Below the pieces are notes generated by a model. It did not search any database, was not told where the DNA came from, and saw only the letters and a list, made by a program, of their open reading frames with translations. Below are positions 11,548-16,184 of a stretch of 64,000 nucleotides of DNA, in pieces. Position 1 is the stretch's first letter. Each line of letters opens with the position of its first letter. Position numbers and translations under genes: made by a program. The stretch comes from an uncultured Pelagibacteraceae bacterium (GTDB lineage Bacteria; Pseudomonadota; Alphaproteobacteria; Pelagibacterales; Pelagibacteraceae): positions 1 to 64,000 of the forward strand of contig CABYCK010000004.1 in the NCBI GenBank assembly GCA_902517535.1. Reading direction: 5' to 3'.

Positions 11548-12873
11548 TTATTTTATACTATCAACTATAACTGCAGCAATTTTAGAATAAGTTTCTGCAC
11601 TATAGTGCCCATATGTTCTGTGGGCAAAAAGTGAAATTGGGTCCTCTTCTTTAGTAAAAACTAAACTTTGTATATCTATTAAATTTATTTTATTTTTTTC
11701 TAATATTTTCAAAATTTGATCTTTCTTAAATAAATTTTTTTTAGATAAATTATGTTTTTTAAAAGTTTCCTTATCGGGAAGATAAACAAAATAAAAATTT
11801 GAGCCTTTTTTGTTAGCATAATTTTTGGCATTTAAAATTATTTCTTTAAAAAGAGAATCTACTGGCAAATTTAAACCTCTATCTAGGGCTAGTTTATCTC
11901 TTAATATTTTTAACCTTATAATTTTCTGAAATACATCTTTGTTTTTTTTGTCACCTATTGAATTTTTAGATAAAAAATTTTTTTTTTCTTTTATAATATT
12001 TTGTTTCAAAATATTATCAATTATTGATTGTTTTTCTTTTAGATTTTGAGAAAAATTTCTATCTAAATATTTAATTAAAATTTTATTTTTCTTTTCTTTT
12101 TTTAAATCATTTAAATCATTTCTTTCAAAATAAACCCAAAATATATTTTTTACTTTTATGTTTTTGGAATATTCTTTTAAAGATGCTAGTTCAATTAGGG
12201 GACCGTTTCCTGCCATGCCCAAAGTCAGAGTTTTTGATTTAGTTGAAAGCCTAATTTGGCTCGCAATATCCTCACCTTCTTTTACACAAGCTCCTTGTGC
12301 AAAAGAATCTCCAATAAATAAATTTTCAATCTCTGAGTTCCAATTGTTATCAGGATTGTTAAATCCAAATCTATCGCTTTTATACACGGAAAATTTTGGA
12401 CCTTCTTTGCAAAAAACGGTTGTAGCATTAGATACACCGCCTAGAGGAAAAAGATTTATATCGCCTTTGTTAAGAAAAATATTAGGTATGATTGAAGGAA
12501 AAGTGTTTTTATTTTTTTTATCCAACTGTTCTACCAATATCATTTTTTCACTTTTTAATGGTGTTTCTATTTTTTTTTCAGAAAATAAACTCATAAAAGA
12601 TATATTGTAAAATTTTACTATTTCGAACACATACAATAAAAGTAAAATTAGAATCCCTGAATTTATGAAAAATATTTTAAATTCTAAATTTAAAATTAAA
12701 ACAAAGATCCAAAAAATTAGTGCTAAAGAAAATATAACGTAGTATTTTAGATAATAATCTAATTGATTTGAATTATGAACAATTTCTGCTCTATAAAAAG
12801 TATAAACTAAAAGAGATAAAAATAAAAAAATAAAAATATAATTAAATACTTGAAAAAAAATATTTTTTTTCAT
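11548..12873 (-). CDS. SGNH hydrolase-like protein, probable polysaccharide acyl-modification
   Basis: N-terminal TM helices, then IGDSFAQGACVKEGED (GDS block) and C-terminal FAHRTYGHYSAETYSKIA (block V-like). Confidence 0.6.
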   Translation of the reverse strand: MKKNIFFQVFNYIFIFLFLSLLVYTFYRAEIVHNSNQLDYYLKYYVIFSLALIFWIFVLILNLEFKIFFINSGILILLLLYVFEIVKFYNISFMSLFSEKKIETPLKSEKMILVEQLDKKNKNTFPSIIPNIFLNKGDINLFPLGGVSNATTVFCKEGPKFSVYKSDRFGFNNPDNNWNSEIENLFIGDSFAQGACVKEGEDIASQIRLSTKSKTLTLGMAGNGPLIELASLKEYSKNIKVKNIFWVYFERNDLNDLKKEKKNKILIKYLDRNFSQNLKEKQSIIDNILKQNIIKEKKNFLSKNSIGDKKNKDVFQKIIRLKILRDKLALDRGLNLPVDSLFKEIILNAKNYANKKGSNFYFVYLPDKETFKKHNLSKKNLFKKDQILKILEKNKINLIDIQSLVFTKEEDPISLFAHRTYGHYSAETYSKIAAVIVDSIK

Positions 12874-12995
12874 TACTGTGATAAAGCACTCAAAAACCTA
12901 GACAAAGAAGCTAAAATACCATAACCGCTTAATTCAATAAATAAAACTATGAGAATGATTAAAATTATTCTTTTGTTTTTATAAAAAAATTCCAT
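12873..12995 (-). CDS. Small 40-aa single-TM protein, translationally overlapping the SGNH-like gene
   Basis: Absent from the ORF track. Reverse strand ATG at 12995 gives MEFFYKNKRIILIILIVLFIELSGYGILASLSRFLSALSQ*; its TAA overlaps the downstream ATG (TAATG). A diverged copy exists at 11460-11519. Confidence 0.65.
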   Translation of the reverse strand: MEFFYKNKRIILIILIVLFIELSGYGILASLSRFLSALSQ

Positions 12996-12999
12996 TTAA

Positions 13000-13428
13000 T
13001 TAATAACTATTAATATAATCTTTTAAATTTTTATTCTCTTCTTTAATTTTTGCAATTAAATGATTAACCACATCTCCAATGGATACAATTCCCAATAACT
13101 TGTTATCCTCCATAATTAAAATATGTCTAATTTTTTTTTCTGTCATTTCATCCATTAATTCAGTCACTGAAGTATTTAGATCACAAGAAATAATTTCTTT
13201 GGTCATTATTTGAGAAACAGATATGCTTAGATTAAATCTTTCTTTACAAATAAACTGGGCAATATCTCTTTCTGATAATATTCCAATTACTTTCTTATTT
13301 TTATCTACTACTGGCATGCAGCCAATTTTTTTATCTTCAAGTTTTTGGCTAGCTATTTTAATTGTATCTTGGTCGTTTAGAGTGAAACACTCCCTTTTGG
13401 ACATCCTGCTTACTAATTTTCCAGGCAT
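13000..13428 (-). CDS. CBS-domain protein (two CBS repeats)
   Basis: KIGCMPVVDKNKKVIGILSERDIAQFI and KIRHILIMEDNKLLGIVSIGDVVNHLI. Confidence 0.9.
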   Translation of the reverse strand: MPGKLVSRMSKRECFTLNDQDTIKIASQKLEDKKIGCMPVVDKNKKVIGILSERDIAQFICKERFNLSISVSQIMTKEIISCDLNTSVTELMDEMTEKKIRHILIMEDNKLLGIVSIGDVVNHLIAKIKEENKNLKDYINSY

Positions 13429-13486
13429 AAAAGTATTAAAGTTTATTTAAAAGTAGGAGTCAAATCACATTAAAAATATCAAATAA

Positions 13487-13512
13487 TGGTGCGGTCGGAG
13501 AGACTCGAACTC
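13487..13512 (-). repeat. Partial tRNA-Leu 3' end duplicate (T-arm, acceptor, CCA)
   Basis: tggtgcggtcggagagactcgaactc is identical to 15050-15075 in the intact tRNA-Leu. No matching 5' acceptor (cgaccgc) follows. Confidence 0.8.
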
Positions 13513-13599
13513 CTTGGGGCATTACCCGTTCCCCCACTAACCACAACACTTTTTCCAAGAGTAGACTGTAATGAGCACAATATCATCTCATTAAATAGT

Positions 13600-14940
13600 T
13601 TAATCTCTAAAATTTTGTCTTTTTCCTGAAAATGGTTTTCTTTTCTTAAAAAACCTTTTTTTAAAATCTTTTTTCTTTCCATTAAAATTTTTTTTAAAAT
13701 TAAAAGACTTGCTATTTTTTTCACTTTGACTCTCATGTTGTGTGCCCCGATTATCTCGTCTTTTCTTAAATCTATTTTTATTTCTTCTATCTTGTCTATC
13801 GAAACTATGTCCACCTCTTTTTCTTCTTCGTCTTTGATCTCTACCTGGTTCTGATCTGAAATTTGGATCTATTAATCTTTGAATAGCATTCCATTTTGCC
13901 CTATCTTCATTTCCAATAAAACTTAATGCGGAACCTTCAGCTCCTGCTCTGGCTGTTCTTCCAATTCTATGAATAAAATCTTCAGGCACCTGAGGTAAAT
14001 CAAAATTAATGACATGTTTTATTGCAGGTATATCTAAACCGCGACTTGCTACGTCTGTTCCCACTAATATTCTAAAATGATTATTTCTAAATGCTTTTAT
14101 AACTCGATCTCTTTTGTTTTGTCTTAAATTTCCATGAATTGCATCAGCATCATGATCATCGTGCTTCAATCTTTTAACCATCCTTTCGGCATTTCGTCTG
14201 GTCTTAACAAATATCAAAATAGAACCCTGTCTAGTGTAAATTTCTTTGATTAATTGATTATATTTATCTCCATCATTTACGCGAAGTACTTCTTGTTTAA
14301 TTTTTTCAATTGGAGTTGATGTAGAACCAACTGAAATTCTAACAGGTTGATTCAAATATTTTTCAGCTAGCCTTAGAATGTTACCTGGTAATGTAGCTGA
14401 AAATAATAAAGTTTGATGTTTTTTAGGAACTGTTTGAAGCACTTGATTAATTTGAGGCGTAAAACCCATATCTAACATTCTATCTGACTCATCGAGCACT
14501 AAAAAAGATGTATTGTTTAGTCTTAAAGTTTTTCGCTTAAGATGATCGTTAATTCTTCCAGGTGTACCGACGACTAATCTTGGATTTCTTCGCATTTGTT
14601 TTAATTGTTTTTGCATCGAGTCGCCACCGATTAATAGAGTTGTTCTAATATTTCCTCTTCCAATTAAATTATTTAAAGTTTGCATAACTTGTGTTGCAAG
14701 TTCTCTGGTTGGTGTAATTACTAACGCAGTTTCTTTTTTTGTCTTAAGTAAATGGTTTACTAAAGGAATGCCAAAGGCTCCTGTTTTTCCAGTTCCAGTT
14801 TGTGCAGTGCCTAAAATGTCTTTGCCATCTAATGCAATAGGTATAGCTTTAGCTTGAATAGGTGTTGGGGTTTTAAAATTAATTTTAGCTAAAGACTCAA
14901 AAAGAGTTTCTTCTAATTTCAAAGATAAAAAATTTTCCAT
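13600..14940 (-). CDS. rhlE: DEAD-box ATP-dependent RNA helicase, RhlE type
   Basis: AQTGTGKTGAFG, LDESDRMLDMGF, SATLP, HRIGRTARAG; Lys/Arg-rich C-terminal tail. Confidence 0.92.
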   Translation of the reverse strand: MENFLSLKLEETLFESLAKINFKTPTPIQAKAIPIALDGKDILGTAQTGTGKTGAFGIPLVNHLLKTKKETALVITPTRELATQVMQTLNNLIGRGNIRTTLLIGGDSMQKQLKQMRRNPRLVVGTPGRINDHLKRKTLRLNNTSFLVLDESDRMLDMGFTPQINQVLQTVPKKHQTLLFSATLPGNILRLAEKYLNQPVRISVGSTSTPIEKIKQEVLRVNDGDKYNQLIKEIYTRQGSILIFVKTRRNAERMVKRLKHDDHDADAIHGNLRQNKRDRVIKAFRNNHFRILVGTDVASRGLDIPAIKHVINFDLPQVPEDFIHRIGRTARAGAEGSALSFIGNEDRAKWNAIQRLIDPNFRSEPGRDQRRRRKRGGHSFDRQDRRNKNRFKKRRDNRGTQHESQSEKNSKSFNFKKNFNGKKKDFKKRFFKKRKPFSGKRQNFRD

Positions 14941-15049
14941 AATAGATTAATTATATTTAATTAAGCTTAGATATTAATGGCTCTATACCTTTAATTGGTC
15001 ACTAACAACACTTTACAATGATTCAAAAAAACACGTTTTCTTTACATTT

Positions 15050-15133
15050 TGGTGCGGTCGGAGAGACTCGAACTCTCACGGGAAACCCACACGCCCCTCA
15101 AGCGTGCCTGTCTACCAATTTCAGCACGACCGC
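15050..15133 (-). tRNA. tRNA-Leu(GAG)
   Basis: Reverse strand GCGGTCGTGCTGAAATTGGTAGACAGGCACGC-TTGAGGG-GCGTG...GAGAGTTCGAGTCTCTCCGACCGCACCA; 7-bp acceptor, encoded CCA, GAG anticodon, long variable arm. Confidence 0.95.
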
Positions 15134-15194: not shown

Positions 15195-16184
15195 ATGTCT
15201 GTTCAACAACAAAGTTTACCAAACTCTGAAGAGATCTATAAAAAGATCTCTAAATTTATCCCTGATGCAGAGTGGAAAATTCATGCACCTTTAATTGAAA
15301 AAATTAATAAATTAAAAAGTCAGAAAAATGCAATAATCCTAGCACATAATTATCAAACACCTGAAATTTATCATGGAGTAGCAGATATTGCGGCTGACTC
15401 ACTCGCTCTTGCAGTTGAAGCTTCTAAAACTTCAGCGGATAAAATTATTTTATGTGGAGTTCACTTTATGGCAGAAACTGCAAAATTAATGAGTCCTACA
15501 AAAAAAGTTTATTTACCAGATATGGAAGCTGGTTGTTCTTTAGCAAGTTCAATCACTGGAAAAGACGTTAGATTGTTAAAAGAAAAATACCCTGGTGTTC
15601 CAGTTGTGTCATATGTAAATACATCAGCTGATGTTAAAGCTGAAACAGACGTTTGTTGCACCTCTGCTAATGCTGTAAAAGTTGTTGAGTCACTTAATGT
15701 TGATAAGGTTATTTTTCTTCCCGACCAATATTTAGCAGATTATGTTTCAAAAAATACTAAAGTTAAAATCATTTCATGGAAAGGAACTTGTATAGTTCAC
15801 GAACAATTTACAGGAAAAGAAATAGAAGACATTAAATCTCAAAACCCAGGTATTAAAGTTATTGCACATCCCGAATGTCCGCCAGATGTAATTAAAGCTT
15901 CGGATTTTGCAGGATCTACTTCTGGCATGGTAAAGTACGTAAAAGATAATCAACCTAAAAAGGTTATGCTTGTTACAGAATGTTCAATGAGTGATAACGT
16001 TGAAGCAGATAATCCAAACGTATCATTTATCAAACCTTGTAACTTATGTCCGTATATGAAGAAAATAAACTTAGAGAAAATTTTAGACTGTTTAGAGAAT
16101 GAAACAAATGAAATACTATTAGACGATAAAACTATCGAAGCTGCTCGAAAATCTGTAATTAGAATGACTGAAATTGGTCGTTAG
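15195..16184 (+). CDS. nadA: Quinolinate synthase
   Basis: AIILAHNYQTPEIYHGVADIAADSLALA and CNLCPYMKKI. Confidence 0.94.
   Translation: MSVQQQSLPNSEEIYKKISKFIPDAEWKIHAPLIEKINKLKSQKNAIILAHNYQTPEIYHGVADIAADSLALAVEASKTSADKIILCGVHFMAETAKLMSPTKKVYLPDMEAGCSLASSITGKDVRLLKEKYPGVPVVSYVNTSADVKAETDVCCTSANAVKVVESLNVDKVIFLPDQYLADYVSKNTKVKIISWKGTCIVHEQFTGKEIEDIKSQNPGIKVIAHPECPPDVIKASDFAGSTSGMVKYVKDNQPKKVMLVTECSMSDNVEADNPNVSFIKPCNLCPYMKKINLEKILDCLENETNEILLDDKTIEAARKSVIRMTEIGR

Follow-up and report, generated by a model that had tools for sequence, protein, structure and literature searches.

A probable stranded, non-autonomous rhlE insert at tRNA-Leu(GAG) of a SAR11 bacterium and its integrase-free relatives

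The tRNA-Leu(GAG) locus and its displaced 3' end

The window (the whole 64,000-nucleotide stretch of an uncultured Pelagibacteraceae genome, G000, that was analysed) carries an intact tRNA-Leu(GAG) gene, followed on the same strand by a helicase gene and by a second copy of the tRNA 3' end. The features of the locus, labelled according to the interpretation that we favour, are:

15050..15133 (-): intact tRNA-Leu(GAG), the presumed integration target, its 3' end forming the left att (ARAGORN)
15050..15075 (-): putative att core, left copy, from T-loop to CCA (exact 26-bp repeat)
14990..15049 (-): probable decayed left end, LE (scoring of post-tRNA flanks; a largely intact LE precedes the same rhlE in G195)
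13600..14940 (-): cargo, an rhlE-like DEAD-box RNA helicase of 446 aa (Pfam DEAD 2.4e-51, Helicase_C 2.3e-33)
13513..13592 (-): putative right end, RE, an arm motif and a hairpin-forming stretch adjoining the core (consensus match, motif scan)
13487..13512 (-): putative att core, right copy, here called the orphan copy: the tRNA gene's own former 3' end, displaced by the insertion (exact repeat, flank match to G239)
13000..13486 (-): chromosomal flank past the element, intergenic DNA and a CBS-domain gene at 13000-13428 (homology to G239, Pfam CBS)

The 26-bp string TGGTGCGGTCGGAGAGACTCGAACTC is present at 13487-13512 and 15050-15075 without a mismatch in either copy; allowing up to three mismatches adds no further copy anywhere in the window (0 expected in shuffles). 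The exact match and the ARAGORN call bear out the original prediction that this string is duplicated and that one copy ends an intact tRNA-Leu(GAG). The bracketed stretch had also been described as holding essentially rhlE alone and no integrase, and the DEAD-box RNA helicase gene is indeed its sole sizeable gene. The product reaches none of the curated NCBIfam equivalog cut-offs shown, so the name is best given as "rhlE-like".

ARAGORN called no tRNA at the orphan copy (13487-13512), and an Rfam search found no RNA family there. The proposal that the orphan copy has no matching 5' acceptor was not quite right, as its 5' neighbour UGUGGUU can pair with GACCGCA; the accompanying remark on its T-stem stands, the 5' side appearing damaged because it belongs to the element sequence. 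With this pairing a tRNA-like fold is possible, and the orphan copy and its 5' neighbour might together constitute a functional tRNA-like RNA with acceptor, D-arm-like hairpin, T-arm and CCA. A 7-bp acceptor-like helix and a GGGG/CCCC hairpin can form in G000, G201 and G242, and the hairpin stretch persists in G180, a member of another SAR11 genus. However, shuffled sequences fold just as stably (z = 0.33), the acceptor pairing is absent in G097, its 5' strand is changed in G180, and the structure is present in only five of 397 family genomes. The fold being comparable to shuffles, lost in G097 and altered in G180, it is not evidence for a functional RNA, a reading that we consider highly improbable.

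Empty and filled sites and the spread of rhlE

Aligning tRNA-Leu(GAG) loci across relatives had been suggested as a check, and it revealed an empty site. Our survey covered 74 same-genus loci with an intact tRNA-Leu(GAG); the tRNA was at the site in all 74 loci read. In 33 of these the tRNA leads straight into ygfZ, the simple arrangement, while 30 have something between the two and 11 lie at a contig end or could not be classed; not all of the 30 occupied loci are counted as members of the G000-type insert family. The empty allele corresponding to the window is found in G239, of the same genus, in which the intact tRNA-Leu is followed by the intergenic flank that lies downstream of the orphan copy in the window, and then by the CBS gene. 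The alignment score of the two flanks is 84, compared with 40.5 for the next best flank and 26 for the 26-mer alone. A second, clean pair of filled and empty alleles is provided by G012, where 3.1 kb of inserted DNA separate the tRNA from an orphan copy; the sequence past that orphan copy aligns with what follows the tRNA in G048 and G021, scoring 138 of a possible 146. Together with inserts at the same site that share the orphan copy and the internal end, the empty site in G239 upholds the idea of integration into the tRNA 3' end. Past the CBS gene, the window also contains an ORF for a 40-aa membrane peptide (12873-12995, minus strand); in genomes with an empty site, G021 and G006 among them, relatives of this ORF directly follow tRNA-Leu(GAG).

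An rhlE gene was detected in 17 of the 169 genus genomes. In eight of these it is the first recognised gene after tRNA-Leu(GAG), and in G033 it lies at +761; G239 has a diverged copy past CBS, five genomes carry the gene elsewhere, and two are contig-edge cases. At fourfold sites, most tRNA-linked rhlE copies are 63–85% identical; between the same genomes, flanking genes often reach only 27–55%. The clearest case is G000 and G063, with rhlE 93% identical at the nucleotide level and 81% at fourfold sites, against nucleotide/fourfold values of 77/38% for ppdK, 74/36% for nadA, 74/40% for nadC, 59/27% for ygfZ and 77/38% for pyrC. Since rhlE is far more similar between strains than are the genes around it, we read the alignments as evidence that it has moved laterally; some pairs share one flank, and the pattern is compatible with more than one route. 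The limited, strongly non-vertical distribution of the gene agrees with the suggestion that rhlE was acquired or moved. In nadA (15195-16184), we observed two allele groups within the genus, with either about 95–97% or 74–78% nucleotide identity to G000, and these groups do not follow the neighbouring genes, which suggests recombination.

One possible route is that an rhlE allele at tRNA-Leu spread purely by homologous recombination through the tRNA and its flanks, with no recent site-specific recombination. Consistent with block exchange, G195 is 93–94% identical to G000 across the ygfZ/pyrC flank and 80% on the ppdK side (fourfold sites: ygfZ 78%, pyrC 85%, ppdK 36%). However, this route leaves unexplained both the att duplication and an RE that is common to other cargo, and it does not account for the position of rhlE between the tRNA and two different downstream contexts, as the CBS gene comes first in G000 and G081 and a conserved small ORF comes first in G196, G033 and G195. 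We therefore consider it quite unlikely as the sole explanation. Within the site-specific integration that we favour, spread between strains could still proceed by homologous recombination across conserved flanks, and not by renewed site-specific events.

Shared ends, variable cargo and the source of the recombinase

The same RE and 26-bp core surround mostly unrelated cargo in G000, G012, G097, G201 and G242. Positions 13512-13585 of the window are 99% identical to the RE consensus (98–100% for G012, G201 and G242); identity is 98–100% over 73–83 bp in G000, G012, G201 and G242, and over 51 bp in G097. Among the 169 genus genomes, RE was found in these five only, apart from an 18-bp match in G094, which adjoins no tRNA and is probably due to chance. 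All genome-contig matches to the element end sequence are from Pelagibacteraceae. The intact LE has a consensus of about 100 bp that starts right after the CCA and is common, at 91–100% identity, to G012, G097, G201, G242 and G090; more worn copies were found in G195 (95% over 79 bp) and G015 (86%).

The arms of LE and RE are similar and have the same orientation, with the motif ACTGTGyTGrwATTGTGCTCrTyAC; their similarity of 26 lies above all of 2000 shuffles, though narrowly (maximum 25). At up to three mismatches, this motif was detected in only six of the 169 genus genomes, while a reversed-pattern control gave none. G012, G097, G201 and G242, all with an intact LE together with RE, each have exactly two copies, pointing the same way; G000 (RE only, at 13568-13592, with 3 mismatches to the degenerate motif) and G090 (LE only) have one copy each. 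This layout is that expected of attP arms around a T-loop crossover, and it is from the layout that we infer the class of the recombinase.

Each site holds one insert, bounded by copies of the tRNA 3' end with arm repeats; both ends are present in G012, G201 and G242. The insert of G000 measures 1.56 kb, the other complete inserts 2.3–5.1 kb, and one exceeds 4 kb. A PrsW protease and a membrane protein are encoded in both G012 and G097 (the latter insert split over two contigs), and G012 additionally has a ligand-gated-channel homologue; G201 carries a MORN protein and small ORFs, and G090 four small ORFs. G242 encodes a 1540-aa SF1 helicase (L188:7567-12189) that is related to the anti-phage proteins Hhe and ProA, although well below their cut-offs, and that may be an anti-phage protein, making it a candidate defence gene inside an integrase-free insert. 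Except between G012 and G097, the cargo shows no substantial similarity beyond a few 36–50 bp matches. In G180, of the other genus, tRNA-Leu(GAG) is followed by three other ORFs, a decayed RE, an orphan copy with two mismatches and then ygfZ; as judged from these alignments, this insert is a decayed member of the family. At this locus (L259:5600-9780) the hairpin stretch beside the att core is still recognisable, while the arm motif is not.

The rhlE-linked inserts are less well preserved. LE is largely intact in G195 and decayed in G000, while RE is intact in G000, decayed in G081 and missing in G196, G033 and G195; no insert with rhlE cargo and both ends intact was found among the genus genomes examined. 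In the scoring of the 74 post-tRNA flanks, LE-bearing flanks reached 113–158, G081 48.5, G000 45.5 and all remaining flanks at most 43.4; in G000, LE is a short relic, recognised as homologous partly through the bridging copy in G195. In its earlier state the rhlE insert was probably complete at both ends. Because its left end has decayed, the G000 copy is probably stranded and no longer mobile, its present immobility being judged from the state of that end.

These observations lead us to interpret 15049-13487, with a probability of about 0.82, as a 1.56-kb non-autonomous element integrated site-specifically at tRNA-Leu(GAG), a probably stranded member of a family driven in trans. Site-specific recombination in the T-loop would have inserted the element, with rhlE as its one gene, at the tRNA 3' end, and the sister elements of other SAR11 genomes would combine the same att core and ends with different cargo. 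As the ends look like attP arms (P and P') for a tyrosine recombinase, and as no recombinase is recognised in the inserts, integration and excision would most likely depend on an enzyme acting in trans, whether it came from a phage, from another element or from the chromosome as a resident tyrosine recombinase; both the type of recombinase and its action in trans are inferred.

Alternatively, an autonomous prophage, ICE or IME may have shrunk and had its integrase deleted, leaving a remnant that is now passed on only with the chromosome and through homologous recombination; no trans-mobilised family would then exist. The decay of LE in G000 and the decay or loss of RE in G081, G196, G033 and G195 are in keeping with a remnant, as are recombination blocks, the rhlE strains differing in which flank is close to that of G000. 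However, at least five inserts have nearly identical ends around mostly unrelated, compact cargo with no recognised integrase, and independent deletions would have had to spare exactly the ends every time. We thus regard a remnant as rather unlikely, although deserving more weight than purely homologous spread.

No tyrosine recombinase was identified by Pfam among the insert proteins scanned, a set that excludes the G180 cargo ORFs and the second of the pair in G015, and no transfer genes were found among the insert proteins scanned. Searching 397 family genomes with RE and scanning 169 genus genomes with the arm motif gave no integrase-bearing relative. As G000 is 78% complete and most genomes are incomplete, a helper integrase elsewhere could be missed, and its absence is weak evidence. 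No excised circle was seen. Of 20 genomes searched, 18 encode a tyrosine recombinase, nearly always a single one of about 304–325 aa that scores below the Xer cut-offs. This resident enzyme, a candidate helper (in G000 in the region C14:16703-17209), shows no association with the elements, so that element-bearing genomes are not marked by an extra integrase. A phage and the resident enzyme are both possible helpers.

Comparison with known systems

Owing to their strong streamlining and the scarcity of recognisable mobile DNA in their genomes, it is debated how SAR11 strains exchange genes. In the HIMB59 clade, whose islands lack tRNA and IS hallmarks, homologous recombination was the preferred explanation (PMC10734472). 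The tRNA-Leu site, which occurs both empty and filled and combines defined ends with exchangeable cargo, offers a concrete, testable route of exchange, and LE, RE and the att core are sequence handles for counting events in metagenomes and for seeking the helper recombinase. Different genes between the same ends at one tRNA, with no recognisable mover, point to a shared gene-swapping shuttle system. We tentatively propose, at somewhat less than even odds, that SAR11 has a family of very small, integrase-free cassettes and that a tyrosine recombinase acting in trans, either resident or from a phage, uses them to shuttle one to four genes, some possibly anti-phage, into and out of one tRNA-Leu in strains of at least two genera.

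On anatomy, the closest known kind are CIMEs, which have lost integration and transfer genes and kept attL and attR (PMC5704250). Like CIMEs, the SAR11 inserts are att-flanked at a tRNA 3' end and carry cargo only, with no integrase or transfer genes recognised among the insert proteins scanned (a few ORFs lay outside the scan); the cores are exact at both ends, including in G000 with its intact RE and decayed LE. Unlike CIMEs, they have no related ICE or IME seen at the site, and nearly identical ends enclose unrelated cargo in inserts of 1.5–5.1 kb. As neither the helper nor the ancestor that the definition calls for was found, we do not class the inserts as CIMEs. What is new here is that unrelated cargo lies between common ends, in streamlined SAR11 hosts and with no autonomous helper seen.

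The nearest described population are the ssrA-specific islands of Dehalococcoides, which in large number occupy a single RNA gene, bear direct repeats of the 3' end of that gene and in some cases have no integration module (PMC3146451). Their sister islands encode a serine recombinase, whereas the SAR11 inserts target tRNA-Leu and no recombinase-bearing sister of theirs was found. Tycheposons (Hackl et al. 2023), as described in later papers, measure 4–200 kb (PMC10872708, PMC12416821), and an island so named has the tyrosine recombinase XerD (PMC10872708). On these descriptions, the SAR11 inserts share with them a tRNA border, the carriage of cargo and a streamlined marine bacterial host, but have no recognised tyrosine recombinase and are mostly smaller, at 1.56 kb in G000.

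The inserts do not have the genes of a prophage or phage satellite: phage structural, packaging and replication genes were found neither in the element, which has only rhlE, nor among the cargo proteins given to PHROGs. The PHROGs matches were to helicase and unknown-function families for rhlE and to one unknown-function family for the MORN protein. In phage and viral collections, LE and RE gave nothing past short tRNA-end or AT-rich matches, and the five viral contigs that hold the 26-mer proved to be tRNA arrays and not a phage attP. Pelagiphage integration at tRNA genes is a further related system: in the SAR11 phage HTVC200P a tRNA-Leu-type stretch adjoins the integrase. It differs in that the stretch matches a different tRNA-Leu and in that the phage and viral collections yielded no LE or RE. 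The stretch (L243:1946-3068) is like most of a tRNA-Leu with a TAA-like anticodon and is probably the attP of the phage. In G034, a phage-type integrase gene adjoins tRNA-Leu(TAG) (L221:1270-2730), and this locus is probably a separate integrated element at another tRNA.
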